Of a DNA stretch of 45,572 nt, positions 5,622 to 45,572 are shown piece by piece. Under the pieces are notes generated by a model, which saw only the letters and a list, made by a program, of their open reading frames with translations, searched no databases and was not told the DNA's origin. The stretch is from a bacterium (GTDB lineage: Bacteria; Patescibacteriota; Saccharimonadia; CAILAD01; BJGX01), in the NCBI GenBank assembly GCA_023261595.1, contig JAHFOQ010000005.1:1-45572 (forward strand). Reading direction: 5' to 3'. Position numbers and translations under genes: made by a program. The stretch's first letter is position 1; each line of letters starts with the position of its first letter.

Positions 5622-5652
5622 AGACCAATACTAAGGAGTATTGGTCTTTTTT
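5622..5652. terminator. Bidirectional terminator between convergent genes; contains the stop codon of the minus-strand gene
   Basis: AGACCAATACT-AAGG-AGTATTGGTCTTTTTT. Confidence 0.85.
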
Positions 5653-10218: not shown

Positions 10219-10225
10219 ATCTGAT

Positions 10226-10231
10226 ATTATA
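10226..10231 (-). promoter_or_regulatory. -10 element TATAAT, 7 nt before the ATG at 10218 (leaderless candidate)
   Basis: Minus strand GATATAATATCAGATATGAAAC. Confidence 0.6.
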
Positions 10232-10248
10232 TCAGTTATATCTGGAAA

Positions 10249-11463: not shown

Positions 11464-11475
11464 TTTAGGAAGATT

Positions 11476-11481
11476 ATTATA
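11476..11481 (-). promoter_or_regulatory. -10 element TATAAT, 12 nt before the ATG at 11463
   Basis: Minus strand ATGTATAATAATCTTCCTAAAATGAGTAAG. Confidence 0.5.
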
Positions 11482-11507
11482 CATTGTTAAATTAATCTTA
11501 ATCGGTT

Positions 11508-12665: not shown

Positions 12666-12667
12666 AA

Positions 12668-13477: not shown

Positions 13478-13578
13478 AATTACTGATTAATCTTAACATT
13501 TTATCTTAACTTGTAAAAGAGTCATACGATTGCTACAATTGCCCTGATTAGAAAATAATACTGGCTAGGAGTAAAAAG

Positions 13579-16500
13579 ATAGATAATATAAGCAAAAATA
13601 ACATTCGACAGATAAAAGAACTTGAGAATGAACTTGAAGAAATAGAAGTTCAAAACTTAAAATTACAAGAAGATCTAAAAAAAGCCGAGAGAATGTTGAG
13701 CAATGTTCATGGATCAAAAGCATACGCAATTTATCACAAAGTTCAAACAGTCAGACATAAATTATCCTCTTCACCTGGTGGTTATTCAAGAAAAGTAGTT
13801 AAGAAGCTCTTAAGTGACCCTGCGTATTTATTTAGGAAGTTAAATAAAAATTCATCAAACGCTACTATTCTAATCGATCCAAAGGAACAGTATAAAGAGT
13901 GGATATTACGAAACGAGCCGCTAAAAAAAGACTTATTAGAGCAGCAAAGCTTATCAAAGGAATTTAAATACAGACCAATTATTAGCATTATTACTCCTGT
14001 CTTCAACCCTCCAAAGAAAGTATTAGTTGAACTTATTGAATCTGTTCTCAATCAATCTTATCCATTTTGGGAATTATGTCTTGGCGAATTTGGACAGAAT
14101 AAAAAAACACAAAAATTAATATTGGAATATGCAAAGAAAGATAAAAGGATAAAGTATAATTTCTTCACAGAAAACAAAGGTATTGCCGAAAACTCAAATA
14201 ATTGCCTAGAAATCGCTAATGGTGAATATATTGCTCTATTAGATCATGATGATACACTCTCCCCTGATGCTCTTTATGAAAATGCGTTGAAGCTAAATGA
14301 AAAAAAATACGATTTTATCTACTCCGATAAGGATAAAATTAATGAAGATGGAGATCGTTTTGATCCACTTTTCAAGCCCGAATGGTCACCACATTTGATG
14401 TATAGTGCAAATTACTTAACTCATCTAAATGTGATGAATAAAAAGCTCGTTGAAAAAGTTGGAAAATGGGACCCCTCTACTGACGGTGCTCAAGATTGGG
14501 ATTTATTCTTTAAAGTTACCGAGAATACTGACAAAATTGCACATATACCTAAAATACTTTATCACTGGCGTGTCTCAGATACATCAACTGCAATGTCGAT
14601 AGAAACAAAACCCTATGCTCTACAAGGGCAAATCAATTCTTTGGATTTTCATCTAAACAGAGTGGGTAAAAAAGGTTCTGCTTATCACACTAAAGACTTA
14701 ATGCTGGCTGTCAGATGGGATATTGAAAAGATAACGAAGAATCTAGTGCTTATATTAATGAATGTATCAGATAATCTTGATGATATTAAACAAAATTTGT
14801 ATTTTTTCCCAGACAGTACATCATTTAAATTCATCATTACAAATCGAGATAAATCCACCGAGACAAAAAATAAAGATGTATTTTATGTTGAAGAAAAAGA
14901 TAAGTCTAACTTGGTTAAAAAGCTAGTTCAAAAAAGTAGTGCCGAGAATTTATTTATAATTGATTCAAGTTGCGAGAAATTCTCAGTCAATATGTATGAA
15001 GAAATGATAGGCTGGGTCAATCAGCCTGAAGTAGGGTATGTCGCTCCATTAGGTTTAACATCCAGGAAAAATCTTGTTGGATCAATGTCGGTCTTCGGCT
15101 TAGGGGGAATATCTGGTAGAGTTTTTAAAGGAGCAGGTATTGAGGTAAGTGATGGAATGTTTGGTTCTCCCCACTGGTACCGTGATGTAACAATGCTAAG
15201 CCCAGATATGCTTTGTATAAAACGTTCTAGATTTTTAAAGTTTTTCATCGATACCACGAATAATCTCGATGACAATTTAAGATTATCAATGATTGAATTA
15301 TCGAAAGAAAAATATAATATTCTGGACACCCAAGCAATTGTAACTATTAATGTTCCTAAGCAAGATTTACCACCAAACAATATGCAGGTTTCAGCCTACC
15401 AAAAATATAAGAAATTGTGTAGTGAAGGTGACCCATATTACAACAAGAACTTAAGTCTAGAGTATTTATCCCCACATATGGATTTGTCAGATGGTGATGT
15501 AGGCCGCCTTCCTATAACTTCCAAAAAAATGTTAAGTAACTATTTCACTAAAGGTACACAGATAGTAGCTTCTACTGAAAAACTAAATGATATTAAATTT
15601 ATTGAAAAATATGATTATTCAGGGAAAAAAGTCATTCAACATCCCACAAAAGAAATAAAGACTGTACAATGGTTTCTCTCTGGTTTTGATGCAGTATATG
15701 CCGGTCTAAACAATATCTTCACTTTTGCTTCTCATTTAGCAGATAATAATATTGAGAATATATTCTATATAGACACACAAGGCGACGTTGAGAAAGAAAC
15801 TAAGTTAATTCAATCTTACTCTAATCTCTCTGGTGCTAAGATAGAAAAATACTATGAAGATAACAAACTTCCAGATTGTGATCTAGCAATTGCAACTCTA
15901 TGGACTACAGCATATTATGTCGCCAAGCATAGTTCAGCAAAAAAGAAAGCATATTTTATTCAAGATGATGAAACTCTGTTTTATAAACCAGGGTCAGTAA
16001 GCGCACTTGTTGAAGCTAGCTATCAATTAGGTTTAATCGGAATAGCTAACACATCCGGATTAAAAATCATGTACGAAAAAAAATATTCAGGTAATGCTCT
16101 ACTCTTAAGGTCGTCTTTAAATTTAGATAACTATACCAACACAAGACTAAATGCTTTACCTTCAATACCATACCAAGTATTTTTTTATGGTCGACCTGCT
16201 CATAATAGAAATGGCTTTGATTTAGGTGTTGCTGCTTTAAAAAAACTTAAGCAGAAGCTAGGTGAAGATGTAAATATTATAAGCGCTGGAGCAGATTGGG
16301 AACCATCAGAGTATGGTTTAAGTGGAGTTATTACGAACCTTGGTAAGATACCTATGAACAAACTACCGGATTTCTATAGTAGTCTAGACGCTGCACTATT
16401 TTTAATGTTTTCAAAACACCCTGGAGTTGTACCTTCTGAGTTGATGGTTTCTGGGTGTCCAGTAGTTGTTAATAAGAGTTCGGACGAAACATGGAAAGAG

Positions 16501-16695
16501 TTATATAAAAATGGTCTTACTGCTGTTGTTTGTTTACCAACTGTGACGAGTTTGTGTGAGGGTTTGCTCCAAGTATTAACTACTCAGAAATTACGAAACA
16601 AAATAATACCTGCTGCTAGAGAAGAGGCAGTAAACTATTACAGTTTATACGCAGAAGAGTGTCAGCAAGCAATTAAGAGTATTAATAAGCTATGA
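13579..16695 (+). CDS. Giant glycosyltransferase: N-terminal coiled coil, GT2 domain, C-terminal WsaF-like GT4 domain; probable non-canonical ATA start at 13579 (first ATG at 13693)
   Basis: Open frame upstream of 13693 encodes IDNISKNNIRQIKELENELEEIEVQNLKLQEDLKKAER; AGGAG at 13567-13571, 7 nt before ATA; GT2 ALLDHDDTLSPDAL; WFLSGFDAVYAGLNNIFTFASHLA...AYFIQDDETLFY. Confidence 0.8.
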   Translation: MDNISKNNIRQIKELENELEEIEVQNLKLQEDLKKAERMLSNVHGSKAYAIYHKVQTVRHKLSSSPGGYSRKVVKKLLSDPAYLFRKLNKNSSNATILIDPKEQYKEWILRNEPLKKDLLEQQSLSKEFKYRPIISIITPVFNPPKKVLVELIESVLNQSYPFWELCLGEFGQNKKTQKLILEYAKKDKRIKYNFFTENKGIAENSNNCLEIANGEYIALLDHDDTLSPDALYENALKLNEKKYDFIYSDKDKINEDGDRFDPLFKPEWSPHLMYSANYLTHLNVMNKKLVEKVGKWDPSTDGAQDWDLFFKVTENTDKIAHIPKILYHWRVSDTSTAMSIETKPYALQGQINSLDFHLNRVGKKGSAYHTKDLMLAVRWDIEKITKNLVLILMNVSDNLDDIKQNLYFFPDSTSFKFIITNRDKSTETKNKDVFYVEEKDKSNLVKKLVQKSSAENLFIIDSSCEKFSVNMYEEMIGWVNQPEVGYVAPLGLTSRKNLVGSMSVFGLGGISGRVFKGAGIEVSDGMFGSPHWYRDVTMLSPDMLCIKRSRFLKFFIDTTNNLDDNLRLSMIELSKEKYNILDTQAIVTINVPKQDLPPNNMQVSAYQKYKKLCSEGDPYYNKNLSLEYLSPHMDLSDGDVGRLPITSKKMLSNYFTKGTQIVASTEKLNDIKFIEKYDYSGKKVIQHPTKEIKTVQWFLSGFDAVYAGLNNIFTFASHLADNNIENIFYIDTQGDVEKETKLIQSYSNLSGAKIEKYYEDNKLPDCDLAIATLWTTAYYVAKHSSAKKKAYFIQDDETLFYKPGSVSALVEASYQLGLIGIANTSGLKIMYEKKYSGNALLLRSSLNLDNYTNTRLNALPSIPYQVFFYGRPAHNRNGFDLGVAALKKLKQKLGEDVNIISAGADWEPSEYGLSGVITNLGKIPMNKLPDFYSSLDAALFLMFSKHPGVVPSELMVSGCPVVVNKSSDETWKELYKNGLTAVVCLPTVTSLCEGLLQVLTTQKLRNKIIPAAREEAVNYYSLYAEECQQAIKSINKL

Positions 16696-17417
16696 ACACT
16701 TGCCCTCTTTGTACTAGTTCAAATAATTCAGTATTTTTAGATGTAAATAAATATTATTTATATCTAAGATGTAAAAAATGCTCAGGGATATTCAGCGTAA
16801 AGAAGGACAATGTAAATCCTAGGAAGAATAAGACATATCTAGATAACCCTGAGAAATACTTAAAAATCATAGACAGATACGGTCAAAGATGGCTTCTAGA
16901 AGAATTTGAGAAGATGTATTTTGGTATTTCAAATCAAGAAAGAGGCACTTTACTTGAGATCGGTGCTGGTGTGGGATATTTTACACTCTTAGCATTTGGG
17001 CGTGGATGGGATTCATATGGTATAGAAACAAGCGAGAAAGCCGCACAAATGGCAAAGGATATATTTAGAATGGACATAGAATATTCATACCTGGAAAACT
17101 ACAAAACTGATAAGAAATATAACAGTGTAGTTATGATCGAAGTATTAGAGCATCTAGCAGATCCGATTAGCTCTATAGATAAAATTAAAATGTTATGTCC
17201 AAACGGGGTATTATTTGCAACCACACCAAACACCGAGAGCAAGCATTGGAAAACTTCTAAACAAAATATCTATGTTCCAGACGACCATGTCTTTTTATAT
17301 AATAAAAAGACAATTAAGATGCTGGCAAAAATATGTAACTTGAAGGATATTCAAATTGAGAAATTTGGTGTGGGCAAAAAGAATGATTCAAATTTAATGT
17401 TTGCTGCCAGGTTTTAG
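16692..17417 (+). CDS. Class I SAM methyltransferase with N-terminal zinc-ribbon
   Basis: CPLCTSSN...LRCKKCSGIFS; LLEIGAGVGYFTLLA; VVMIEVLEHLADP. Confidence 0.85.
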   Translation: MNTCPLCTSSNNSVFLDVNKYYLYLRCKKCSGIFSVKKDNVNPRKNKTYLDNPEKYLKIIDRYGQRWLLEEFEKMYFGISNQERGTLLEIGAGVGYFTLLAFGRGWDSYGIETSEKAAQMAKDIFRMDIEYSYLENYKTDKKYNSVVMIEVLEHLADPISSIDKIKMLCPNGVLFATTPNTESKHWKTSKQNIYVPDDHVFLYNKKTIKMLAKICNLKDIQIEKFGVGKKNDSNLMFAARF

Positions 17418-18377
17418 TTTAGTATAAGTCTTTGAGATTTTTCTAATTGGTTTTGTAACTTTCCATGATCTTGATTGTTCATAGCCATGTATTTTATTCT
17501 CGAGACTATTGTTATTATTTTTTAGCTGTTCTATTTGTTTTTCCAACTCTCTCTTACTTAATTCTCGCGGTAATTTAGGAATGGAATCAAGAATTTTCTC
17601 TTTATTTGGATCAATCTTTTGAAGCTGAACGAAAAATTCGTATTCTGCATATCTGGTAGGTACATAATTAATTATTTTAAAAGGCATTAGATCAAAAATA
17701 ACTAACTGTTTAAAGATTTCAAGAAAAGAATGTGGAGTAAATACAAAGCAATGACAATCTTGATAAATATTCTGGTCAATACTCTTTTTTGACATTTTAA
17801 TCACTTCTTCTTGGGTGAATTTTTTTGGTGCATTTAGGAATAATTGACCGTCCCATATTTTCCTTGCATCAACCTCTACTGTGCTTAGACCATAATCAAT
17901 TACCTGTTCAGCTGAGGGTATTTTTCTTTTTTCAAGATAACTACCTATAATCTGACCTGCAGTACTAACTGGCCTATTAATATCAAAAGTATATCTCTTG
18001 TCTGGTATAGCTAAACTTAGAATTCCATCTTTATCTAAGACGTTAGATATCTCATCTAGCCAGGAGATGATATCTGGCACGTGTTCAATAATATGTGAAG
18101 CGATAACGTAATTAAATTTCTTATTAAGGGTGGCTTTCTTAAGCGTATCAGATTTTTTTAAACTATAGTCCACATCAACAATCATTGATATAGGAAACTT
18201 CTTGTCATCCTTATATTTCTGCTTTAGCTCTAAAGTTGGCAGATGGTCAAGATAGTAAATGTCTGCTTCATCTTTTGTTAAAACAGGCCATGCTAATGGA
18301 CCTAATTCCAGACCAGTAGCTTTGTTGTATTTTATTCCTTTTAAGAGGATTTCTTTCCTTGTTATATATCTCATCAA
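17394..18377 (-). CDS. Methyltransferase-like protein with C-terminal coiled coil and SRSWKVTKPIR tail
   Basis: NYVIASHIIEHVPDIISWLDEISNVLDKDGILSLAIPD; LEKQIEQLKNNNNSLENKIHGYEQSRSWKVTKPIRKI. Confidence 0.8.
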   Translation of the reverse strand: MMRYITRKEILLKGIKYNKATGLELGPLAWPVLTKDEADIYYLDHLPTLELKQKYKDDKKFPISMIVDVDYSLKKSDTLKKATLNKKFNYVIASHIIEHVPDIISWLDEISNVLDKDGILSLAIPDKRYTFDINRPVSTAGQIIGSYLEKRKIPSAEQVIDYGLSTVEVDARKIWDGQLFLNAPKKFTQEEVIKMSKKSIDQNIYQDCHCFVFTPHSFLEIFKQLVIFDLMPFKIINYVPTRYAEYEFFVQLQKIDPNKEKILDSIPKLPRELSKRELEKQIEQLKNNNNSLENKIHGYEQSRSWKVTKPIRKISKTYTKLKPGSKH

Positions 18378-21130
18378 TTAATACTAGCACCGTTTGGTAT
18401 CATTTCAAGTGTAGTTCCGTACAGCTGAACTTTTGGTAAACTTGCATATTGAGACAGATACAACTGAGAGTTAAGAATCCATCGCTTAGTGCCATTCTCA
18501 ATCAAGTAGATTTTACCGTCATATCCTTGGGCAATTGTCTGTAAATAAATAGTTAACGGGAATGAATCGAATACTGAGGCAGAAATAATCTCGTCTGTAC
18601 TAGCATTAGAGCCATACGCTGTTTTTGTATTAGAATCTGGAAAACCAGCAGATGAGCCAAAATTAATCATTTTAGTACCACTCCCCGTTTTTTTAAAGAA
18701 AGTTGGTGCTAATTTTCCAGAGTCAGTAAAGCTATCGACAGTTGATTGTGCTAGTAGTGTGATAGGTATTTGTCGGCTAATAAAGCCGTAGTTTACTAAC
18801 CGGGCAAAGCTATCAATATAGTATTTATTACCCTGGCTAAGTAGCCAAACTCTTGAATCCGCCTGATTACTTGATTGAACAAGGTATGAAGCTCGATTAC
18901 TAGATAAAGGGAAATAGTTTACAGATAATGATGTTGTATTTCCAGAGTTAACTCCATATGCATCATCAAAACCACTTAAAGCGATGCGCTGCCCATTCTC
19001 CATGACGTAATTTATTCCACTGCTCTTCATAAATATCTTAACGCTGCCTTGTGTAGTAAAGCGATTAAGTGTAGCTGGCGCGATACTCACTGGATTACTA
19101 AAACCCCATTGGCTCAATAGATTATCTGGTACAGAGTAGTAATTACCATCATTTAATAAATATCTACCTAATCCAGTATCTACTTTAAAAGATACAGGAG
19201 CAGTTTGTGGATACTGATAAATTAAGGATTGTGAAAGTGATATCACTGATGCAGTTCTTGGATAACCCCAAGCATTGAGCGTATTTCCATCCGGAATATA
19301 ACGAACATTCTCATTTTCATTAGTGTAAATATTAGAGGTGCCTTTTATTTGATAAAGTGTTGATGCATTTTGTCCATCTTGTAGCTGAGCAATACTTGCT
19401 TGGTCGTAAATATCAATTGTATTTGGGTCTGCCTTCCATGCGGATAAGGTTGAGCCGTCTGGAACCCAGTGTTTTTGCCCATCTAATATATAGGTTTTAT
19501 CTGTAGGAGAAACAACTCTTACAACACTTGATGCATTCGAAGCGGGTACTAGTAAGTTTGCAAGGTTCGGACTAATGGTTAATAAGTTATTAGTGTAGCC
19601 CCATGTGTTTAAGATATTATTGTTAGGTATATATCTTTTCTTTCCACCATCTAATAAATACCACTTATTATCATCTGATGGCTTTAGGAAGTTTGAATAA
19701 TTTATACTCGGTAAAAATCCAAGTGCAAGATTATTGATTTCGACGTAAGCAGGGTTTCCCCAGTTCGATGATTGTATAGTTGATAATGAGCCGATTTTAC
19801 GATTTGTGTCTATAACATATTTTGATCCAGATGAGCTAATATATCTGGATAGATCGGTTCCAGTAGTTTTCGTGGCCAAATATTCTGGTGTTACTGTCGT
19901 CTCTTGTGATGGGATAAATCCCCACTGATATAATAGATCATCATTTGGAATCTTATTAACCTGGTTTCCATTCATAACATAATGAGACATATCATTTGTA
20001 CTCTTCACAAATCTCCCTAGATAATTTTTTTCGGGTAAATTATTCAACACAACAGTTGCTGGTACCGCATCTACATCTTGCTGAGTGAAGCCCCAAAGCT
20101 GCAGGTGTTGCATTGTTGGGATATAATGCTTTTCACCATTTGAAACAAAGTAATAATACGGGCCAGATCTACCTACTTGTTTTAAATTTGGCAATGTTGC
20201 TAGAGAATCAAAATATGATTGAGGGACTTGAAGAACCGGATAACTATCTAATTTCCAGCTATAATAAGTTTCCGAAGTAGGAATCCACATTTTTGTTCCA
20301 CCAATTTGTAAGAAATACCGAGAATCATTTGGCGCTTGTATTACTTGAGTAATATATTCAGATGAATAAGTAGAGCCAAACCAGTCAGTATAGTCTCTCC
20401 AAAAGTTTCTATTGCCGTATGCGCTGCATGAATCACCACTACCATATAGATTATTTAGGGCAGCTTGGTTTGGTTGGTATGGAGTGTAAGAATACAATGC
20501 AGCCGTACCCCTTGTTTGAATATAGACACTACTAGATCCACATGCTGAATTAGGGCTCCATTGTATATTTGCTTGGCCTGTTCGATATGGTACAAACCAG
20601 TTTGGATTATCATCAAAATAATTTCTAAAATGTCTCGCCCCTTGTCCAACTTGATTTGTAAATCCATAAAATGCTGGGTCACAACTACCACTGTCTGGGC
20701 AAGCAAAGCCCATAGCAGTTCGGTATTGCCACGCTTCTGGCCAAGTATCAGTAATTAATCCATTTTCTTTTTGCAATGTCACAATAATAACTTGTGGATT
20801 GATGTTATAATTTTGCGATTGTTCCCAAATTATCTGCGCTGAGCTCTTGCCATTTTCTACATAATCCTTTAAACACGTATAGCCAGCTCGGCAACTTGGT
20901 ACCTTTGAATTTAAGAATAATTGTATGTCGGTAATCGACATACTATTCTTATTAGTGAAAACACCGTCATCAATGATTCTGCCAGCATTAAAAGATGATC
21001 CGTTTGCAGCACTTGCAGAGTTGGTTAATAAAAAAACAGAAAGGAGCGCAATCAAAACACCCATTACAAAAAATAATGTTTTTCTCCTACTCAACTGTAA
21101 TAGTCTGATTAACATTTCCCTCTTTTCCAT
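18374..21130 (-). CDS. Large secreted protein: N-terminal hemagglutinin/muramidase-like domain plus about 12 divergent repeats
   Basis: Signal peptide ...LLTNSASAA; SAQIIWEQSQNYNINPQVIIVTLQKENGLITD; repeats of WYLLDGGKKRYIPNNNILNTWGYTN type. Confidence 0.75.
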   Translation of the reverse strand: MEKREMLIRLLQLSRRKTLFFVMGVLIALLSVFLLTNSASAANGSSFNAGRIIDDGVFTNKNSMSITDIQLFLNSKVPSCRAGYTCLKDYVENGKSSAQIIWEQSQNYNINPQVIIVTLQKENGLITDTWPEAWQYRTAMGFACPDSGSCDPAFYGFTNQVGQGARHFRNYFDDNPNWFVPYRTGQANIQWSPNSACGSSSVYIQTRGTAALYSYTPYQPNQAALNNLYGSGDSCSAYGNRNFWRDYTDWFGSTYSSEYITQVIQAPNDSRYFLQIGGTKMWIPTSETYYSWKLDSYPVLQVPQSYFDSLATLPNLKQVGRSGPYYYFVSNGEKHYIPTMQHLQLWGFTQQDVDAVPATVVLNNLPEKNYLGRFVKSTNDMSHYVMNGNQVNKIPNDDLLYQWGFIPSQETTVTPEYLATKTTGTDLSRYISSSGSKYVIDTNRKIGSLSTIQSSNWGNPAYVEINNLALGFLPSINYSNFLKPSDDNKWYLLDGGKKRYIPNNNILNTWGYTNNLLTISPNLANLLVPASNASSVVRVVSPTDKTYILDGQKHWVPDGSTLSAWKADPNTIDIYDQASIAQLQDGQNASTLYQIKGTSNIYTNENENVRYIPDGNTLNAWGYPRTASVISLSQSLIYQYPQTAPVSFKVDTGLGRYLLNDGNYYSVPDNLLSQWGFSNPVSIAPATLNRFTTQGSVKIFMKSSGINYVMENGQRIALSGFDDAYGVNSGNTTSLSVNYFPLSSNRASYLVQSSNQADSRVWLLSQGNKYYIDSFARLVNYGFISRQIPITLLAQSTVDSFTDSGKLAPTFFKKTGSGTKMINFGSSAGFPDSNTKTAYGSNASTDEIISASVFDSFPLTIYLQTIAQGYDGKIYLIENGTKRWILNSQLYLSQYASLPKVQLYGTTLEMIPNGASIN

Positions 21131-34819: not shown

Positions 34820-34876
34820 TTTTCCACAACCTCTTGGTTAGAAACAGATTTCTGGTTTTTGTTTGGTTGTGGAAAA
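34820..34876. promoter_or_regulatory. Inverted pair of DnaA-box-like sites upstream of dnaA
   Basis: TTTTCCACAACC (34820-34831) and exact inverse GGTTGTGGAAAA (34865-34876), 33 nt apart. Confidence 0.75.
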
Positions 34877-34922
34877 CTTTTTTAGCGATTATTATAGTAG
34901 TAAAGAAGGGGTGAGAAGATAC

Positions 34923-36272
34923 GTGGAGAACTCAGAAACAAAACTATGGGAATTAGTTCGTGGTAACTTACAGTTATCACTCTCTTCAGCTAATTTCTCT
35001 ACATGGATCGCAACAACTCAAGCAGAGTCGATTACTAATTCATCGGCACACATTCGTGTACCAAACTATATGACGAAGCATTATCTAGAAACTAAGTTTT
35101 ATCAAGATATTCTTGATGCATTTTCTCAGATAGATCATCCAATAGAAAAGGTGGTATTTAGTATTGGTAAAGTTGATAAATCAGCTATTAGTCGTCCAAA
35201 TACAACCTCTACAAAACCTGTAGAACAAAAACCTTCTGAAGAGCCAATAAAAACTACTACTCTAAATACACCTTTTCAAAGTAAATATAATTTTTCTAAT
35301 TTTATTGTGGGTTCTGGTAATCGCCTCGCTTTCTCAGCAGCCCAGCTTGTAGTAGAAAAGCCAGGTTCTGCGTATAATCCCCTCTTTTTATATGGACCAG
35401 CGGGAGTGGGCAAAACTCATTTAATGTGGGCGATAAATACCGAAATTCATAAACTTAACCCAGATGCACGTATTGTATATGTCACTAGTGAACAAATTAT
35501 TAGTGAATTTGTGCAAGCAATCCGTAAAGGGGAGAAATTTACCAACAAATACCGTGAAGTAGATGTTTTACTAGTAGATGATATGCAATTTATTGCAGGT
35601 GCTGAAAAAACTCAAGAAGAGTTTTTTCATACATTTAATACTCTCCATCAAAACAATCGTCAAATTGTTTTATGTTCTGATAGACCACCAAAAGAAATAC
35701 CGACACTTGAAGCACGTTTACGTTCTCGGTTTGAATGGGGAATGGTAGCAGATATCCAACCTCCTGACTTAGAAACTCGCATAGCGATTGTTATGCAGAA
35801 GGCTCAAGATAAAGGTGTTAACCTAGATGAATCTGTAGCAGACCTAATTGCTCGCTCGGCTGAAATGAATATTCGTGAGTTAGAAGGAGCGCTTACAAAA
35901 GTACTGGGTTATTGTTTAGCACATAATACTGAATTAACCTTTGAAGTAGCTGAGATGGCCCTCGGAGATCAAAGTAAGCAGAAAAAACGTGTAGAAGTAA
36001 AAGATATACTCCAAAAAACAGCCAGTTATTATAATATTTCCTATGACGAGATAATGGGCACCCGTAGAAATAAAGAAATTGTACTACCCCGACAGATTGC
36101 AATGTATTTTATGCGTACCGAACTTCACCTTAGTTTCCCTATTATTGCGGCGAAACTCGGTGGGAGAGACCATACAACAATTATGCATGGAGTAAAGAAA
36201 TTAGAAAAAAACATTCCCAATGATAGTAATTTAGCTTCAGATATAACAAAGCTTAAAGCAGAAATATTCTAA
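34923..36272 (+). CDS. dnaA: Chromosomal replication initiator DnaA; probable GTG start at 34923 (ORF-track start 34863 overlaps a DnaA box)
   Basis: ENSETKLWELVRGNLQLSLSSANFSTWI; GPAGVGKTHL; LVDDMQFIAG; LGGRDHTTIMHGVKKLE. Confidence 0.97.
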   Translation: MENSETKLWELVRGNLQLSLSSANFSTWIATTQAESITNSSAHIRVPNYMTKHYLETKFYQDILDAFSQIDHPIEKVVFSIGKVDKSAISRPNTTSTKPVEQKPSEEPIKTTTLNTPFQSKYNFSNFIVGSGNRLAFSAAQLVVEKPGSAYNPLFLYGPAGVGKTHLMWAINTEIHKLNPDARIVYVTSEQIISEFVQAIRKGEKFTNKYREVDVLLVDDMQFIAGAEKTQEEFFHTFNTLHQNNRQIVLCSDRPPKEIPTLEARLRSRFEWGMVADIQPPDLETRIAIVMQKAQDKGVNLDESVADLIARSAEMNIRELEGALTKVLGYCLAHNTELTFEVAEMALGDQSKQKKRVEVKDILQKTASYYNISYDEIMGTRRNKEIVLPRQIAMYFMRTELHLSFPIIAAKLGGRDHTTIMHGVKKLEKNIPNDSNLASDITKLKAEIF

Positions 36273-36549
36273 CTGTGGAAAAGTATGTGTATAAGTTGTG
36301 GGAATTGTGTGTAAGTCTTGTGTATGGTGTGTGTAGAAAACGAGCAGTTACCCACAAACAGATACGGTTAGTAATTATGGCTATGTATAACTCAGTACTT
36401 ACACACGTTCTATACTCAGGAAATACACATTTTAACCACAGTATAAGAATAGCCTTTTTAACTATCACAAAAGCTAAAAATAACATTTTCCACAATTTCC
36501 ACAGGACCTATTACTACTATCATTTATTTAATCTAGTACAATATTAGTT
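36273..36549. other. oriC: Putative oriC (dnaA-dnaN intergenic region with DnaA-box cluster)
   Basis: TGTGGAAAA 36274, TGTGTATAA 36286, TTACCCACA 36348, TTTTCCACA 36486, TTTCCACA 36496; AT-rich; gene synteny. Confidence 0.75.
36537..36542 (+). promoter_or_regulatory. -10 element TACAAT, 7 nt before the dnaN ATG
   Basis: ctagTACAATattagttATG. Confidence 0.5.
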
Positions 36550-37650
36550 ATGAAGGTTTCTTTATTACAACAAAATATTGATACAGGATTATCTATTACT
36601 TCTCGAATAGTACAACCTACTAATAGCCTCCCTATTCTTGGTAATATCCTTGTTTTAGTAGAAAAGGGTTCAATTGAACTTCAAGCTACTAATCTCGAGC
36701 TCTCTATTCGGTATAATATGCCTGCTAAAGTAGAAGTAGAAGGTAGCTGTTCTCTTCCCGCTCGCCTTTTCTTTGATATTGTCCATTCATTAAATGACGA
36801 TAAGATTCAACTTACTTCAAATAAAGATAATATTATCTTGAGAACAGATGGTTTTGAAGCTGAAATGAATGGGTTAAATGCGACTGACTTTCCACAAATA
36901 CCAGAAATTACTACAAAAAATACTATTACCCTCCCATATGAAGTATTTATGAGTTCAGTTGAAGAAATTTTACCAGCCGTTAGTATTGATGAATCTCGCC
37001 CAATTTTAGCTGGAGTACTTATTAATATTACTAAGAAAGAACTTCTTTTGGCTGGTACAGATAGTTACCGACTCGCCCAAAATAAGTTAATGATTGATTC
37101 GGATAAAGAAATTTCAGTTATTGTTCCTGCTTCTACTCTCTCTGAAGTATTGCGTGTTGCTTCTATTCTTTCCCCAGAAGAAATAACGATGCAGCTAAGT
37201 GAAACTGAAATTATTTTTGAGATAGGACAAGCACAAATTATCAGCCAACTTATAGAAGGACAATACCCAGATTATAAAAAGATAATTCCTGAAAAATCTA
37301 CCACACAAATTATTCTTGAAAAGAAAGAACTTACCAGGGCTATTAAGATTGCATCGTTATTTTCACGCGAGAATGCTCATAGTATAGAACTTGTAGTAGA
37401 TGCACGAGAACTTATTATTAACTCTAAAGCGAGTGATGTAGGTACGAATTCTTCAAAAATTCCAGCTAAGGTATCTGGTGATCCAATTACGATGAATGTT
37501 AACGCTAAATACCTCTTAGACGCAGCCAATTCAATTAAGAGTGATATACTCCAACTTCTCTTCACCGACAAGCTAGAACCTTGTGTGGTGAAGCCTGAAG
37601 GTAAATATCACTCAGACTATGTACACATAATAATGCCACTTCGTAGTTAG
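36550..37650 (+). CDS. dnaN: DNA polymerase III beta subunit (sliding clamp)
   Basis: LPILGNILVLVEKGSIELQATNLELSIRY; ESRPILAGVLINI; GTDSYRLAQ; C-terminal IIMPLR. Confidence 0.97.
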   Translation: MKVSLLQQNIDTGLSITSRIVQPTNSLPILGNILVLVEKGSIELQATNLELSIRYNMPAKVEVEGSCSLPARLFFDIVHSLNDDKIQLTSNKDNIILRTDGFEAEMNGLNATDFPQIPEITTKNTITLPYEVFMSSVEEILPAVSIDESRPILAGVLINITKKELLLAGTDSYRLAQNKLMIDSDKEISVIVPASTLSEVLRVASILSPEEITMQLSETEIIFEIGQAQIISQLIEGQYPDYKKIIPEKSTTQIILEKKELTRAIKIASLFSRENAHSIELVVDARELIINSKASDVGTNSSKIPAKVSGDPITMNVNAKYLLDAANSIKSDILQLLFTDKLEPCVVKPEGKYHSDYVHIIMPLRS

Positions 37651-37651
37651 T

Positions 37652-38698
37652 ATGCTAGAAAGTGTAGCTCTTACAAATTTTCGTAACTATTCAGACAAAA
37701 CAATTCAATTAACTGAACCAACTACAATAATTACCGGTAAAAATGCTATCGGTAAGACAAATATTTTAGAATCAATTTTTGTTGGGTTATTTACCAAGTC
37801 ATTTCGTGCTCATGATAGTCAGCTTATACAAAACAGTAAAGAATACTTTCGGATTGAACTAAAATTTCCTAAAAATACGTTAGCGTATCATTACACTGTT
37901 CAACCAAAACCAAAAAAAACTATTAAGCATAATACTAAGCTCACTACATTACGACAAAGTATTGGAACATTCCCTGTAGTTCTGTTCGAACCAAACTCTA
38001 TTCTCCTCTTCTCTCTTAGTCCAAGTTTGCGACGTAAATATCTTGATACCCTTCTTTACCAGCTTGATAAAAAATATGTAGAACATAGTATTGTTTATAA
38101 AAGAACGTTACGTCAACGAAATGCCTTACTTAAAAGAAATAAACAATCAGGTAAATATATGCCAGCAGATGAACAAATATATATTTATAATATTCAACTT
38201 GCAACTTCTGGCGCATATATAACAAAACGGCGTGGTGAATTCATAGCACAGATAACACCTCTCATTCAAGATTTTTATAATACTATTTCTTCAGGTAAGA
38301 AAAACATTCAAACAGAGTTTATCTACTCTAACGTTTCGGAAGAAGACTTACTTAACAAAATTCAAAATAATTGGTCGGTAGATAGTAGTGTTGGATTAAC
38401 TTTAATTGGCCCTCACCGAGAAGATTTTGTTGTGTTATTTAATAATGAACCAGTAAAAAATTATGCTTCTCGAGGAGAAATACGTTCATTACTTCTTGCA
38501 TTTAAATTTGCCGAACTTACATTGTTTAAAGATTCAAAAGAGCCACCTATTCTTTTACTTGATGATGTTTTTAGTGAACTTGATGAACAACGGCAAAAAC
38601 TACTAATAAAGAATACATCTAGCTACCAAACAATTATTACTAGTACCGATATTCCTCGAAATGTTATTAAAGAGTTTCAACATATTGAGCTAGTATGA
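37652..38698 (+). CDS. recF: DNA replication/repair protein RecF
   Basis: LTNFRNYSDKTIQL; ITGKNAIGKTNILESI; LIGPHREDF; ILLLDDVFSELDEQR. Confidence 0.96.
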   Translation: MLESVALTNFRNYSDKTIQLTEPTTIITGKNAIGKTNILESIFVGLFTKSFRAHDSQLIQNSKEYFRIELKFPKNTLAYHYTVQPKPKKTIKHNTKLTTLRQSIGTFPVVLFEPNSILLFSLSPSLRRKYLDTLLYQLDKKYVEHSIVYKRTLRQRNALLKRNKQSGKYMPADEQIYIYNIQLATSGAYITKRRGEFIAQITPLIQDFYNTISSGKKNIQTEFIYSNVSEEDLLNKIQNNWSVDSSVGLTLIGPHREDFVVLFNNEPVKNYASRGEIRSLLLAFKFAELTLFKDSKEPPILLLDDVFSELDEQRQKLLIKNTSSYQTIITSTDIPRNVIKEFQHIELV

Positions 38699-38958
38699 GC
38701 GATTTAGAACCAATTAATTTTAGTCAATTTAAGAGGCATAAAGAATTATCAAATAGTAATAGAGATATATCTGAAATTCAGAATATTATTTTTGAAATAA
38801 CAAAAATACAAGTTAATATAAAAAAATATCAGCCTCCGGTTTTAGTAATTACAGCTCCAAGTGCATCAGCAGCAAGTGAACTGAATCTATCAAAACAAGT
38901 ATTACTATCAAAAATATCTCAGTACAATTTATCGCAAATAACTATCGTTATACAATAA
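38695..38958 (+). CDS. DciA/DUF721-like protein
   Basis: Position immediately after recF; LVITAPSASAASELNLSKQVLLSKIS resembles the DUF721 C-terminal half. Confidence 0.6.
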   Translation: MSDLEPINFSQFKRHKELSNSNRDISEIQNIIFEITKIQVNIKKYQPPVLVITAPSASAASELNLSKQVLLSKISQYNLSQITIVIQ

Positions 38959-38963
38959 TTGTT

Positions 38964-39584
38964 TTATCCTGGCGGAGCTCCCTGTCCTTGAAGAAAGCGC
39001 AATTCTTTATACTGAATTTGTTCAGTATTAGTATTAATATTATTTGAATTTAAGTAATTAATAGCATTCTGTTTATATCTATCGTATGGATTGCTTTGAA
39101 TAGTAACGATAAACGTATTTGTTGCATTATTATATTCAATATAAAAACCATCACCTTGTCGAGGAAGTGATTTTATAAATCTCGTTCGTTCGGAAGTATC
39201 TTTTCCGGTTGTAAATATAAATGTTATTGGGTCAATCTTTTCATTATTAATTGATTCAATATTCGAAATCTTTATTGTGTATTGTGTGTTTTCTTTTAAA
39301 TTTGTATTCGGTTTTAAGGTTAAAACTGTATCGCTAATATTTTTTATAAAATATGAATTAGGTATTACTTCTACAATGTTTGCAGTTTCTTTTTTAGAAA
39401 GTGGTTTAGAAAATTCAAAAGTAATTTCTGAACTAACGTCTACTTCTTTACTATAATTAACTGGTTTTGTTTTTAGTAATAAGAATGATTGGTTTGTATT
39501 ACTCGAATTTAGAACAAATATAAACCCTAAAATAATTATAAGAAAAGCTACAAAAATAACTGCAATAATAATGTTCTTTTTCAT
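38964..39584 (-). CDS. Membrane-anchored protein with SbsA/Big_5-like Ig domain
   Basis: N-terminal TM; YSKEVDVSSEITFEFSKPLSKKETANIVEVIP...NLKENTQYTIKISNIE. Confidence 0.65.
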   Translation of the reverse strand: MKKNIIIAVIFVAFLIIILGFIFVLNSSNTNQSFLLLKTKPVNYSKEVDVSSEITFEFSKPLSKKETANIVEVIPNSYFIKNISDTVLTLKPNTNLKENTQYTIKISNIESINNEKIDPITFIFTTGKDTSERTRFIKSLPRQGDGFYIEYNNATNTFIVTIQSNPYDRYKQNAINYLNSNNINTNTEQIQYKELRFLQGQGAPPG

Positions 39585-40612
39585 TCTGTTACCTTATTAT
39601 TATTTACTATATAAATCCCATCTTGCGAAAAAACGATAAGTTGTTTTGGTAGAACTACAGTATTTACTGGATTAGTAATGACAGGGTCAAGTTTTTGTAA
39701 CTCATTTTCGCTCAATTTTGATATGGTATATTTTGAAAATATATTATCGTTTTTCTGCTTAGTAACAGCGAAAAGGAATTGCATCGAACTTGTATTTAAA
39801 CCCGTAATAAGGTTAATATCTGTCGATAAATTAACTTCTTGAACTGATCCTCCTTGTATTAATTTAGGGAAATTATCTGTTGGCGATTTAATTATTATAT
39901 TATTATTGTTAACAATTTTTGCTTGTGAAATCGCTTGTTTCGCAATTTGAGTAATTTGCTTTGAAGCTACAGTAAACTTATTAACTTGTAATTGCGTATT
40001 TGATTCCTTCGTTGTATATAAAACATAATCAGGATTAGATAGTAATAGTTCTTGCAGGTTAACCTCTCCAAGTACTTCTTTATTATTAGTAAGTGTATTT
40101 ATACGTACTAGTGAGCCTTGTATGTTTGGTCGAACATTCTCAGTGTTAAAATATTCGCCATAATTCGTTTGGCTAGGGTTGAGTTGTACTAGTATTAAGT
40201 TAGTATTATCTTGCCATTGTGTAAATGCCACTCTATCTACTTTTACAAGAGGTGTATTTTCTGAACCTTGTTGATCTGTTCTGTAGACAGTCAATTCTCT
40301 ATTACTCGGATTAATGTAGCTAATATTTTCACCGTTATAACTAACTTTTGGTGAAAAACTTGTATTAATAGAACTAATTGTCGTTACCGTGGAATTACTA
40401 ATTTTCTTTAAAAATCCATCTTCAGAAATATAATAAATTGTATTCTCACCTGTAACAATTGGTTGCGAAAGATCTAATTTATCTTTTGAAATAAGGGCAA
40501 TATTTGAGTTATTTGAACCAACAAAAAATATAATAATAGTGGTGATAACTATAATTATTACGATTAATATGAGGAGTAAAATATTTTTCTTGGTAAACAT
40601 ATTATTTTCCAT
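39581..40612 (-). CDS. Membrane-anchored, beta-rich (possible beta-propeller) extracellular protein
   Basis: N-terminal TM followed by recurrent strand patterns (NTIYYISEDGFLKKIS, NGENISYINPSNRELTVYR). Confidence 0.5.
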   Translation of the reverse strand: MENNMFTKKNILLLILIVIIIVITTIIIFFVGSNNSNIALISKDKLDLSQPIVTGENTIYYISEDGFLKKISNSTVTTISSINTSFSPKVSYNGENISYINPSNRELTVYRTDQQGSENTPLVKVDRVAFTQWQDNTNLILVQLNPSQTNYGEYFNTENVRPNIQGSLVRINTLTNNKEVLGEVNLQELLLSNPDYVLYTTKESNTQLQVNKFTVASKQITQIAKQAISQAKIVNNNNIIIKSPTDNFPKLIQGGSVQEVNLSTDINLITGLNTSSMQFLFAVTKQKNDNIFSKYTISKLSENELQKLDPVITNPVNTVVLPKQLIVFSQDGIYIVNNNKVTE

Positions 40613-43046
40613 TTATTGACCAATGCCAAGCTTCACTTGGTAGATTTTTAAAACCATATTTTTCTGCATTTACTTTTAACCAATTAAATCCTGAAGAGCC
40701 TTTACTTAATGTACTACCGTTCTGGGTAAAATCAATTGCTAAACCAACCTCGTGCATTGATGTTCCTGGTATTGCTGTAGGTACTCTACAAGAACTAGCA
40801 GGTGCGGTATAGACATCCGGACATCCATTAGTGGTACGTAATTCAACTTGACGTTGAAAGGACCTAAAACCACCCCCACCAAACGTTATTCCATCAGCTT
40901 TTGCAGCATCAAGTAATTCTTTTAACTTAGCAGCTATTGTGGTATTCACTTGAATCCCATCTACATTACAAACCATAATTTTAACTGTATCAACCCCTCC
41001 AGGTCCTTTATCCTGTTCAACCCCAACCTCAGTTATCCCTGGAGTTGCTGGACAAGGAATATTTGAAGTATCTTCATCTGGATTAGCTGTTGAGGAAGTA
41101 GCATTTCCACACGATATTTTATCTCCAGCAGCCGTAACAAGATCCTGAATAGTCTTCTTAATGCCTGCAATGTATTGCTCTGGATTATTACCACCATCTC
41201 CAGGAGGTGCATATTTCATGATAATATCGGTGATAGTAATTTTACCTTCGTCAAGATAAACCTTTTTAACATAGGTTGGCTGATCATCTTTTGATCCTCC
41301 TCCATCTAAACTATCAGCGAAAGAATCATATTTATACCATAAGCGACCGTTAGCTGAGACATTTGGTTGTGATGCAGTAGCTGTTCTACCAAATGAGTTA
41401 TAGCTATTATCAGGTATAGCCTTACCATAGCTCGATTCTTGAATTGCAATTTGTACGAGCAAGAATGGATTTACTCCAGCTCTTTTAGCACCAGAAACAA
41501 ATTTTGCGCCTAAATTACTCAAAGGTGCATCACCAAGACCTTTTGTTTTAATATAATCATCAATTACTTTACCTAACTCTTCATCACTCGAGTTAATAGT
41601 AAATAACCTTCCATCATCTACACATGTTCCAACACCTTGCGCACCATTTTTATTACAATCATTAGATTGTTGCACGCCTACTGCACTTCCTCCACCATTA
41701 GAAACATTTTCAGCAATAACTGCACCAAAAGCATCTTGTCCGGCAGGACTAGTTGGGTGAACCGCTAATCCATCAGCGTTTGTTATAAGATTATTAGAAT
41801 CAACTAAGCCAGGTTTTATATCTACTGGATCACCCTGCGGGTAGACAGTTTTAAACCAAGAAATAACAGAGTATCCCTCACCTTTATTATCGTAAATTGC
41901 TTTATTAATACTTTGATATGTACCAGCTAGAGATGGTTTATCTTGGAATCTTCCAGCTACATCTACCCAGTAGATTTTTGCTTCTGGATTAGCAGTTTTA
42001 ACTGCGGTGATAGCAGTTTTAATATCATTACCAAATGTAGCTACATCGTACGCATTTGTACCTAGAGCAATTACTACTGCTTTTGAAGCTTTAATTTTCT
42101 CTGTACTTGAATTTATAACTTCTAAACCTGTTGGACTTGGTCCTCCTCCTGTTAAACCTCTACTACTTAATCCGTCTACTTCCACATCGGAATACCCAAC
42201 AGCAGAAAATTTTGCAATAATGTTTGCTTTGGATTGGAAGGTGATTGAATCACCGATAACAAAAACTTTACCAGGTGCTGGTTTACTATCTACCGTAGTT
42301 GGTTGAGTATCATCGGCTTGAGCAGCAGGTAAAAGAGGGTTATTTTGTTTGGTTGTTTGAGCTGGGGTTGTACCACTACCTGCACCCCCACTACCCGAAC
42401 TACCGGCTTGTAATTGTTTGTAATAGCCAAGCGCCATCGTTACATAGGTTTGTACACTACCAGGGCTATATCCAGGACCACCATTATATGCCCCAAACAA
42501 ATAACTTAGCGTGCCTTTTTCTTTCGCTGCTAATTCTCCTTCTTTTGCTCCGCTGGCAGGTATTTGAGCTATATCTTTTAAGAATACCTTAGCAGCGGCA
42601 TTCGCAGCATCTTGAAAATTATTAATATCTCCTGCGTCCTTAGGAAAAGAAGTTGGGAGAAATTGAAACGGACCTTGAGCATTGGCACTACTTGTTGGCC
42701 ATCCTTTATTGTAGTCGTCAGGGTTGGAGCCTTTAATTGCTGATTGTTTATAGTCACGTATCCCATTTTCTACCATAAATAACGCCATTAACGCGAGAGG
42801 ATCGGTTTGTTGGCTATTGGCAGCTTTGGTTATCATAGTTCTAACTGGTTCAGGCAGATCATTCGGTAGTGTTGAACTTACTGATGTAGTGATTGTGGTT
42901 GCACCACAAGGCACATCCGTTGGATCAAACTGTGGCGTTCTTTCAATCTCAAATCTTTGTTGAGGAGTGAAAGCTAAAGCTTGAAAAGGAAGTAAAACTG
43001 TAAGACTTAGCAAAATGAAGGTAAAAATAAGTTTAAGCTTTATCAT
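40602..43046 (-). CDS. Secreted multidomain wall/glycan enzyme: lytic-transglycosylase-like, SGNH hydrolase-like, glucosaminidase-like and VanY-like carboxypeptidase
   Basis: Signal peptide; MVENGIRDYK...QGPFQFLPTSF; VFVIGDSITF...ALGTNAYD...DGLAVHP; IAIQESSYGK...NSFGRT; GGFRSFQRQVEL...GTSMHEVGLAIDF...WHWS. Confidence 0.8.
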   Translation of the reverse strand: MIKLKLIFTFILLSLTVLLPFQALAFTPQQRFEIERTPQFDPTDVPCGATTITTSVSSTLPNDLPEPVRTMITKAANSQQTDPLALMALFMVENGIRDYKQSAIKGSNPDDYNKGWPTSSANAQGPFQFLPTSFPKDAGDINNFQDAANAAAKVFLKDIAQIPASGAKEGELAAKEKGTLSYLFGAYNGGPGYSPGSVQTYVTMALGYYKQLQAGSSGSGGAGSGTTPAQTTKQNNPLLPAAQADDTQPTTVDSKPAPGKVFVIGDSITFQSKANIIAKFSAVGYSDVEVDGLSSRGLTGGGPSPTGLEVINSSTEKIKASKAVVIALGTNAYDVATFGNDIKTAITAVKTANPEAKIYWVDVAGRFQDKPSLAGTYQSINKAIYDNKGEGYSVISWFKTVYPQGDPVDIKPGLVDSNNLITNADGLAVHPTSPAGQDAFGAVIAENVSNGGGSAVGVQQSNDCNKNGAQGVGTCVDDGRLFTINSSDEELGKVIDDYIKTKGLGDAPLSNLGAKFVSGAKRAGVNPFLLVQIAIQESSYGKAIPDNSYNSFGRTATASQPNVSANGRLWYKYDSFADSLDGGGSKDDQPTYVKKVYLDEGKITITDIIMKYAPPGDGGNNPEQYIAGIKKTIQDLVTAAGDKISCGNATSSTANPDEDTSNIPCPATPGITEVGVEQDKGPGGVDTVKIMVCNVDGIQVNTTIAAKLKELLDAAKADGITFGGGGFRSFQRQVELRTTNGCPDVYTAPASSCRVPTAIPGTSMHEVGLAIDFTQNGSTLSKGSSGFNWLKVNAEKYGFKNLPSEAWHWSINGK

Positions 43047-44020
43047 ATTAAATCCTTAATACTCATCTTATATATCCCTAATTCTGAATTGAGATAAATA
43101 TACTGAGAATTTACCGCTAAACTCGTAATTTGCTTAAATTCCACCGGTAGTTTTGCTATCGGTTTTGATTGTTGTTTACTTATATCATAACTATATAAAA
43201 ACATTGTATTTTGTTTGGTATCTTTATCTAGGTATATAAGAGTATTACTATTAATTGCTGCAATTGCCTGTATGTTATTTGTTATTGTTAATTGAGTTAA
43301 TTGTTTGTCTCTAATTAAGTATACTGGTGATGAAGAAATATTTTCTTGGATTAAACTAAACCCAAGAGTAGAAAACGGTTTATAACCAAAATTTTTCTTA
43401 TTTGTGATTTTTTGTAATCCACTTAGTTTAGTAAACTGATTAATAGTAATATTGTTAAAATTATCTTCATTATCTCTTTGAGCAAGATCTATATACGTAT
43501 TATCCGAGAGCAACATATAAGTAATAAACTGGCTGGTAAAAAGTGTATCTCTTTGAGTATTAGCTATGGAGCCTCTATATGCTGTTTCGGTAAGTTCTCC
43601 TGCATCGGTTCCTTTTGTTTTGTCGGTTGAATTTGTAATTAAGTAGTTATCTTTTGATAACCAAGCAAAGAATCTCCCGTTTGTTTTTTGAATAGTCTGA
43701 AAACTACTTAAGTCATAAACAGTTTTTATGTCAGGTCGTTTCTCAGTTACGTACAATCCGAAGGGGTTTAATTCTATCTGACTATCATTTGCAAATTCTT
43801 TTTGTAATTTAAGTTCAGAATTATCTATTTTAAACAGTTTTGTATTACTAATTACATACGGCTGATCATTAATAACAGATATTGTACCGGAAGCTTTACC
43901 AACTAATTCAGGTTTTAGCTCAGTAAGAGAACCTCCAATAATAAAAATACTAATAATTGTTCCGACAATAAATACGCCTAAAATTCCTATAATTATGTAA
44001 AGTAATGTTCGATTATTCAT
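43043..44020 (-). CDS. Membrane-anchored, beta-rich extracellular protein
   Basis: N-terminal TM; repeated SVINDQPYVISNTKLFKID / KTVYDLSSFQTIQK-like strands. Confidence 0.5.
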   Translation of the reverse strand: MNNRTLLYIIIGILGVFIVGTIISIFIIGGSLTELKPELVGKASGTISVINDQPYVISNTKLFKIDNSELKLQKEFANDSQIELNPFGLYVTEKRPDIKTVYDLSSFQTIQKTNGRFFAWLSKDNYLITNSTDKTKGTDAGELTETAYRGSIANTQRDTLFTSQFITYMLLSDNTYIDLAQRDNEDNFNNITINQFTKLSGLQKITNKKNFGYKPFSTLGFSLIQENISSSPVYLIRDKQLTQLTITNNIQAIAAINSNTLIYLDKDTKQNTMFLYSYDISKQQSKPIAKLPVEFKQITSLAVNSQYIYLNSELGIYKMSIKDLI

Positions 44021-45572
44021 TATTGGCTACAAATACTTTTAATATTAGCTTTATCTGGCAAGTAGTCACCAGGGTTTTGTTTTGCACCATCTACCCCATC
44101 TTTACGAACTTCAAAATGTAGATGAGGGCCAGTAGAATCTCCGGTACTATCACCAATTGAGATTACATCGCCTTGCTTCACAGGATCACCAACATTTTGA
44201 ACAAGTATTTCTTTATTGTGGGCATACGCGGTATATAATCCATCTTTATGTTTAAGAATTACAAAATTTCCATATCCGCCACTTTGTCCCACTGGTCGAA
44301 TTGCCGCAACTTCTCCATCTGCAACCGCATAAATCTTTGCTGTTTCTTTACCAGAAAAATAAATATCAACAGCGGGGAATCCATGTCCTTTGGTACATCG
44401 ACTAATTCCATAAGGCTCCTCTACCGGCCAAATAAAATTAGCTGAATTTTGTCCATTATTTTCCAGTGATCCACCACCTCCTCCAGAGTTTCCAGCGTAG
44501 ATACTCGTATCACTAGCATCACTACTCAGCTTACTGAGGTAATCTAGCTGAGTATTATAATAATTATAGAGCCGATATCTAATAGCGAGTAACTGACTAG
44601 GATTATTTAGGTCTTTTGCGTCTTGTAGAAGAAACTTACAATCATTGTATTTGTTAAATTCTGAATCTGGATTATCATTTACTGGTTGTTTATTTACATC
44701 AAGGTCGACAGATTTTTCAGGGTAATAAGAAAAATATCTTTTATATCCTGTTAAGGTTCCTTTATCGTCTCGAATTTCTCTTTCTTTAATTTCAAAGTAT
44801 AATGCCGTTGGAATTTTCGCTTTAAAACATTCATCATAGTGTGAGAATTTGCGTTTTTGATTCTCATCATTTCCCTTTTTTACCCCCTCTATAATGTGGG
44901 CATTATCAATAGGATCTAACGCAAGTTCTTGTGGGGTGAAACCTGCTGTCTCAATCTTAAAATACTGATCTCCGGTAATGTCTGCTGCTAAGGCATTATT
45001 TTTTTCTCCTGTTGCATAAAACAATATATCGCTATGTATATTAGCAAGAGACCATAATGGATCTAAGATAGATTTAAAACTACCTATCATTGCTGTTCTT
45101 GCGGTGTTGGGTGAAGTAGAATTTTGCATTATGATACTCGCCAATGAATGAATGTTGGCAGTATTAAAAATACGGTAAGCAATACCATTATTTTTTTGGA
45201 GCTTACTATCAATATCATCTGCTCTTAAGGCTAATACTTTTGATTCATAAGGGGTTAAAAATCTCCCACCAATTCCTAAGGTATAATCATTCATTAATTG
45301 TCGTAAGCCCATACTTTGACGGTTATAGTTATTTGGTCCAGGTTCAAGGCCACTTACTGAAGTAGAAGAACCAGTTCTAACATATGAAGTCATGATTTGC
45401 TCTAGGCCAAAACTACTAGTGTTACTAAACACACCTTGTGAATTATTTAAGATTTGTGTCTTAAGATCGGTGTAGCCATTAAGCATTATTTGGTTACCAT
45501 CTTGACCAGTTTCTTGCTTAAGACTATCTAAAAGGTTAGAAAGTGTTGAGAAAATACTCCCAAGAAAACCAG
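44020..45572 (-). CDS. M23 (LytM) endopeptidase at the C-terminus of a longer protein; 5' end lies outside the window
   Basis: GHGFPAVDIYFSG...GYGNFVILKHKDGLYTAYAHN...STGPHLHFEVRKDG; frame stays open upstream of 45486 to the window edge (GFLGSIFSTLSNLLDSLKQETGQDGNQI-M). Confidence 0.9.
   Translation of the reverse strand, partial: GFLGSIFSTLSNLLDSLKQETGQDGNQIMLNGYTDLKTQILNNSQGVFSNTSSFGLEQIMTSYVRTGSSTSVSGLEPGPNNYNRQSMGLRQLMNDYTLGIGGRFLTPYESKVLALRADDIDSKLQKNNGIAYRIFNTANIHSLASIIMQNSTSPNTARTAMIGSFKSILDPLWSLANIHSDILFYATGEKNNALAADITGDQYFKIETAGFTPQELALDPIDNAHIIEGVKKGNDENQKRKFSHYDECFKAKIPTALYFEIKEREIRDDKGTLTGYKRYFSYYPEKSVDLDVNKQPVNDNPDSEFNKYNDCKFLLQDAKDLNNPSQLLAIRYRLYNYYNTQLDYLSKLSSDASDTSIYAGNSGGGGGSLENNGQNSANFIWPVEEPYGISRCTKGHGFPAVDIYFSGKETAKIYAVADGEVAAIRPVGQSGGYGNFVILKHKDGLYTAYAHNKEILVQNVGDPVKQGDVISIGDSTGDSTGPHLHFEVRKDGVDGAKQNPGDYLPDKANIKSICSQ

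Follow-up and report, generated by a model that had tools for sequence, protein, structure and literature searches.

A block of predicted wall hydrolases and membrane anchors beside the replication genes

The 45,572-nt stretch analysed here (the window) spans the whole of contig C20, one of 42 contigs in a 798-kb metagenome-assembled genome (MAG) of a Saccharimonadia bacterium that is ~93% complete. Its right-hand end carries five minus-strand open reading frames (ORFs) encoding predicted peptidoglycan hydrolases and membrane-anchored proteins (38964-39584, 39581-40612, 40602-43046, 43043-44020 and 44020 to either 45486 or 45570). As the earlier note had described, these frames interlock, with overlaps of 4, 11, 4 and 1 nt, and the contig ends inside the rightmost one, whose product bears an M23 peptidase domain. 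The plus-strand partners are dnaA, dnaN, recF and a DciA-like gene (34863-38958; matches to Bac_DnaA, DNA_pol3_beta, RecF/SMC_N and DciA), so that the block converges on replication genes, the usual boundary of this slot in relatives; past dnaA come rnpA, yidD, yidC and jag. The position of the origin rests on dnaA-dnaN-recF, as GC skew does not clearly mark it in the window. Since the same gene string is intact in a same-genus genome (G001, locus L055) and the slot recurs in ~100 loci, the five-gene block is not a chance arrangement.

The contig-truncated gene (44020-45572, minus strand) supplies the C-terminal 516 amino acids (aa) of what we call the body protein, the N-terminal part of which lies on another contig of the same MAG (C36, L004:3-2495); its G001 orthologue has 1132 aa and one transmembrane (TM) segment at ~aa 163. 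The M23 metallopeptidase domain (44092-44361, minus strand; PF01551, E=5.3e-26, and 1e-24 in the Pfam scan of window proteins) contains an HLH motif, is the only M23 match of its genome, and forms the interchangeable C-terminal enzyme of the body, being replaced in relatives by VanY, M74-like or M14 domains or by nothing. An AlphaFold model of the body protein from locus L075 (39 rows) reached a pLDDT of 54, and Foldseek placed only its C-terminal MepA part (probability 1.00, E 0.03) and no body fold.

Two genes further downstream, the 814-aa product of 40602-43046 (minus strand) begins with a TM or signal segment and continues through four predicted enzymes: an SLT/lysozyme-like domain (aa ~60-200, 42447-42869; PF01464, E=0.0019, and a family profile) with the motifs MALFMVENG, AQGPFQF and AYNGG; an SGNH/GDSL hydrolase domain (aa ~255-455, 41682-42284; PF13472, E=3e-4) with GDS, GTN and D..HP; a GH73 glucosaminidase domain (aa ~500-650, 41097-41549; PF01832, E=8e-4, and a family profile); and, within a swapped C-terminal segment (40605-41081), a VanY domain (aa ~690-814, 40605-40979; PF02557, E=7e-13, over the cut-off). 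The VanY segment also matches VanY-type carboxypeptidases in the PDB (E=4e-10), carries the Zn motif SMHEVGLAID...EAWH and is the genome's only VanY match. Catalytic motifs are present for VanY, SGNH, SLT and GH73, and more than one putative hydrolase specificity lies directly downstream of VirB4, split in this genome over two genes (M23 body; SLT-SGNH-GH73-VanY).

Flanking the multi-domain enzyme are two single-TM, beta-rich anchors of 325 aa (43043-44020) and 343 aa (39581-40612), both on the minus strand, the first without a Pfam or NCBIfam match and the second without a Pfam family. The earlier note had considered them unrelated-looking scaffolds, but profile-profile alignment with hhalign joins them over 298 columns (probability 96%, E=4e-9), which makes the second a diverged paralog of the first. 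Both evolve fast, with 65% (325-aa) and 45% (343-aa) identity to their G001 counterparts. The strand pattern of the first may, on our reading, be propeller-like; for the second, an AlphaFold model from a two-sequence alignment was unusable (pLDDT 33) and its sequence profile gave no credible match in the PDB. The last gene of the operon (38964-39584, minus strand) encodes a 206-aa single-TM protein with a Big_5 immunoglobulin (Ig)-like domain (PF13205, E=5e-9) and a C-terminal domain of ~80 aa without Pfam match (38994-39218, minus strand), as a rule single-copy in a genome and virB4-linked. By iterated profile, this tail domain recurs in 39 of 58 closed loci, where it is mostly the last gene that carries it, and across 34 of 61 genomes. 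Of the 30 testable matches, 26 lie no more than 14.5 kb from virB4, and the domain is possibly an unrecognised component of the machine described below. Compared with PrgL as a candidate VirB8, it shows no similarity, although the tail protein has a similar single-TM topology.

Continuation of the operon into a type IV secretion system

The earlier note had suspected that the block belongs to a trans-envelope machine whose VirB4 and VirB6 genes lie past position 45572, and both are indeed present, so that the upstream neighbours are type IV secretion system (T4SS) genes and not unrelated housekeeping ones. Contig C36 of the same MAG starts with 670 bp matching window positions 44903-45572 at 98% and then runs on. 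It encodes the N-terminal 831 aa of the M23 protein, directly preceded by a 516-aa part of a VirB4 ATPase (L004:2562-4112; P-loop_TraG, 3.5e-28). This VirB4 falls in the NCBIfam conju_CD1110 VirB4 family (333 bits vs. a curated cut-off of 325), the same family name being borne by the VirB4 of the plasmid pCF10. A further contig (C5), found by DNA search with G001, holds a divergent double pilin, two TrbL/VirB6-like genes (3.2e-6, over the cut-off, and 1.7e-4, below it), PrgI (VirB3; 1.3e-15), a 287-aa protein and, at its end, the first 101 aa of VirB4. The pilin match (T4SS_pilin, 5.4e-18; L157:28-603) covers two tandem units in one ORF, divergent from the VirB6 genes, and the 287-aa protein, without a profile match, can be called TrsD-like by its position and by the literature.

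The whole order thus reads VirB6-like, VirB6-like, PrgI, TrsD-like, VirB4, body-M23, anchor, multi-hydrolase, anchor and Ig-tail, with the pilin divergent upstream and recF convergent downstream. In G001 a single contig carries a VirB6-like gene, PrgI, the TrsD-like gene, VirB4, body-M23 and all downstream genes, with three pilin-like ORFs and further VirB6-like sequence upstream. No VirB8-like protein was recognised; the relaxase family PF03432 has no match in this genome (93% complete), other MOB classes not having been searched; and two VirD4-type TraG-D_C matches, in frames of 838 and 858 aa, lie on other contigs (C4 and C41).

The machine is the chromosomal T4SS already known from Patescibacteria, for which Quinonero-Coronel 2025 (PMC12102498) describes a VirB4 clade nested in MPF-FATA, PrgI, VirB6, TrsD and VirB2-like pilins, often near dnaA and mostly without a relaxase: VirB4, PrgI/VirB3, VirB6, the TrsD position, VirB2-like pilins and dnaA proximity are all shared, as are the lack of a detected relaxase and the peptidase and lysozyme genes downstream of virB4. 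In Southlakia epibionticum (S. epibionticum) the T4SS locus SEML1_0006-0019 is essential according to Wang 2023 (PMC10633639), and PMC12102498 reports that homologues of peptidases and lysozymes encoded shortly after virB4 are essential. As the Patescibacteria T4SS is published, the machine itself is not new; for the virB4-to-recF interval we found no description. The main texts of both papers contain neither modular exchange nor an SGNH-containing four-enzyme protein, paired anchors or the tail domain, while their supplements may hold gene-level notes on hydrolases. Likewise, literature searches returned no description of domain shuffling in this interval, subscription papers and supplements lying outside their reach.

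Domain exchange in the virB4-to-recF interval

The comparison covered 100 loci, of which 20 come from related genomes and 80 are named loci of GTDB genomes. VirB4 occurs in 57 of 61 relatives, some matches being fragments or weak, and in 65 of the 100 loci virB4 is followed by a few same-strand genes and then by recF, DciA or dnaN; 24 loci run off their contig and 11 have no replication genes there. The co-occurrence across Saccharibacteria that the earlier note had proposed to look for therefore holds. After removal of duplicates, 58 closed loci with genes in the slot remained, for which domains were counted with Pfam scans of proteins from ~20 loci and then with local profiles grown from those hits (E <= 1e-3, so that a few weak matches are included). 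Hydrolase domains occur in 56 of the 58, glycan- and peptide-cutters together in 44, and an SGNH domain in 19; the slots hold two to five genes with modules including SGNH, GH73, VanY, Amidase_2, M74, M14, NlpC, C39, Phage_lysozyme2, CHAP and M23, arranged in 44 different architectures, and some genomes show one recognisable hydrolase domain only. Among relatives with a placed virB4, half of the M23 matches (22/44) fall within 14.5 kb of it, against a chance expectation of ~3%; VanY is virB4-linked in 8 of 30 cases, the remaining copies being mostly separate small proteins. In some lineages, many from gut or rumen, virB4 lies away from recF (L112, L117, L127, L131, L135, L147, L151, L152 and others), often with hydrolase or tail genes still beside it.

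The exchange is sharply bounded. The protein encoded after VirB4 has a constant body of ~800-900 aa that contains one or two TM segments; the C-terminal domain that follows is M23, VanY, M74-like, M14 or SGNH, or nothing recognisable follows. Between two genomes of one genus (G009 and G003), bodies 72% identical over 907 aa carry VanY in one case and stop right after the body in the other, and in a second pair the bodies are 44% identical with an M74-like domain on one (L058; the top Foldseek matches of its predicted model are MepA) and VanY on the other (L057). The same holds for the window's multi-domain enzyme, which shares 87.5% identity with its G001 counterpart across 655 aa; past that point the two are unrelated, VanY in the window facing Amidase_2 in G001, although the VirB4 proteins of the two genomes are 97% identical; nucleotide identity falls from ~80% to ~50% near position 41080, at the junction near aa 655. 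G001 is a 2.2-Mb composite MAG, which bears on this swap, but an assembly artefact is not favoured, given that both genomes have an uninterrupted reading frame through the junction and that swaps are also seen in other pairs. On G001 contig C596 (L161:5679-6578), next to uvr-type genes, a protein with a VanY domain is ~50% identical to the window's VanY segment; with the composite nature of that MAG in mind, the swapped segment may have come from such a source. On a 57-row VirB4 tree the C-terminal enzyme type changes at least 24 times, as compared with 25-35 changes (mean 29.7) for shuffled labels, and so keeps only little phylogenetic signal.

A probable expanded VirB1 slot and its possible substrate

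T4SS require local opening of the cell wall, which in monoderms is provided by a multi-domain VirB1-type enzyme. The closest parallel is found in the MPF-FATA conjugation systems, namely pCF10 (NC_006827; PMC11323569), where the gene right after VirB4 encodes PrgK, with Phage_lysozyme2 and CHAP domains; in both cases a multi-domain hydrolase directly follows PrgI and VirB4, and Phage_lysozyme2, CHAP and LytM/M23 recur in Saccharimonadia slots. In contrast to the one gene and one domain order of pCF10, the Saccharimonadia slot is highly variable in gene number and architecture and adds SGNH, GH73, VanY, Amidase_2, M74, M14, NlpC and C39; the genome of the window shows no PF03432 relaxase, and its VirD4-type genes do not adjoin virB4. 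The slot also departs from PMC12102498 and PMC10633639, where VirB1 homologues are reported as not highly associated with virB4 outside Paceibacteria: a VirB1-like hydrolase adjoining VirB4 is present here, in the position of PrgK, as the M23 body directly downstream and the multi-hydrolase two genes further. For Saccharimonadia, this answers the remark that VirB1 homologues seem rarely virB4-linked, the enzymes being present under many different folds.

In light of these comparisons, the block very probably forms the promoter-distal end of a Saccharimonadia epibiont's chromosomal T4SS, with the stretch between virB4 and the replication genes as an enlarged VirB1 (PrgK-like) slot for wall hydrolases. 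We propose that membrane segments would tether the hydrolases to the machine and that these enzymes, together with the single-TM anchors, would open a passage in the peptidoglycan of the contact site for a channel or pilus. In such a scheme the SGNH enzyme would strip off groups that hinder muramidases, for instance O-acetyl, a role suggested by its recurrent fusion to glycan cutters and by PMC11323569, the muramidase or glucosaminidase would cut glycan strands, and VanY, amidase or M23 would cut peptides. The exchange of single domains even between close relatives further suggests that the machine of each species is equipped to cut one particular wall, perhaps that of its host. That the variable part matches the wall of a host bacterium and not the epibiont's own we hold to be about as likely as not; the host wall is a plausible target, since little change would be expected in the own wall from one sister species to the next. 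A bolder version, which we hold to be rather unlikely, treats the interval as a host-range cassette, where a fixed machine carries domain-swapped modules matched to host peptidoglycan, module content predicts host wall chemistry, and the tail domain is an unrecognised component that perhaps fills the missing VirB8 role.

Several points weigh against the expanded-slot reading. A role of the enzymes at the channel or on a host wall is predicted from sequence. The SLT, SGNH and GH73 matches to Pfam are individually weak (E 0.0003-0.002), although relatives support them, and a domain match does not equal activity, given that the LytM domain of PrgK is degenerate and its CHAP domain inactive in vitro (PMC11323569). 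The contigs C20, C36 and C5 were linked through the 98% overlap and a comparison to G001 in place of reads, and the ~2% of positions that differ in that overlap (window 44903-45572 vs. L004:1-670) imply that the MAG mixes strains at this locus. Finally, with the genome's only M23 and VanY matches both in this operon, a housekeeping role in the own wall becomes possible.

The same concentration of M23 and VanY, together with the dnaA-proximal position, would fit autolysins of growth and division that merely adjoin the origin and the T4SS. This we consider quite improbable: the linkage is to virB4, including loci without an adjoining recF (e.g., L131, L147 and L112), such frequent changes of enzyme type are not expected of housekeeping enzymes, and many relatives have separate VanY genes elsewhere. 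More serious, and a tentative alternative to a host-directed role, is that VirB1-type assembly enzymes open only the epibiont's own peptidoglycan for T4SS building, with interchangeable cutters and neutral exchange. VirB1 and PrgK act in the envelope of the producing cell (PMC11323569; PMC12102498), pCF10 has its enzyme in the same post-VirB4 position, and some genomes show a single recognisable hydrolase domain. Against this, one cut per wall would be enough, yet the enzymes of the window address glycan strands as well as stem peptides and perhaps esterified sugars, and exchange within a genus and family at ~80-97% VirB4 identity would be odd if the substrate were a constant own wall.

Polymorphic toxins likewise place an exchangeable C-terminal domain on a constant carrier, and the multi-domain hydrolases could by analogy be T4SS or Sec substrates, lytic toxins released onto the host for nutrients. 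The likeness extends to the constant N-terminal part and the sharply bounded, exchangeable C-terminal enzyme, and there is context for it in that TM7x kills many host cells early, when its T4SS is more expressed (PMC10768705), and in the proposal that hydrolases compromise host envelopes (PMC11665869). Unlike in such toxins, the exchanged domains are wall hydrolases, and their carrier sits within the secretion operon. We judge the toxin reading improbable: an N-terminal TM or signal segment would fit export by Sec and a membrane anchor better than export by the T4SS, and no immunity-type gene was seen beside the hydrolases in a search that was not systematic.

With the role of the Saccharibacteria T4SS called completely unknown in a recent perspective (PMC11665869), fast-changing wall hydrolases on a conserved machine offer a concrete handle, as they predict the bonds that are cut; module content can be compared with host wall type across cultured pairs, and tests with purified enzymes suggest themselves. 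Elsewhere in the window, 18374-21130 encodes a 918-aa protein without a Pfam match at 1e-5, and 5631-17417 holds a surface polysaccharide cluster with a DUF2079/O-antigen ligase fusion, glycosyltransferases, a Wzt-type ABC exporter, a 1000-aa double glycosyltransferase with WsaF_C and a methyltransferase.

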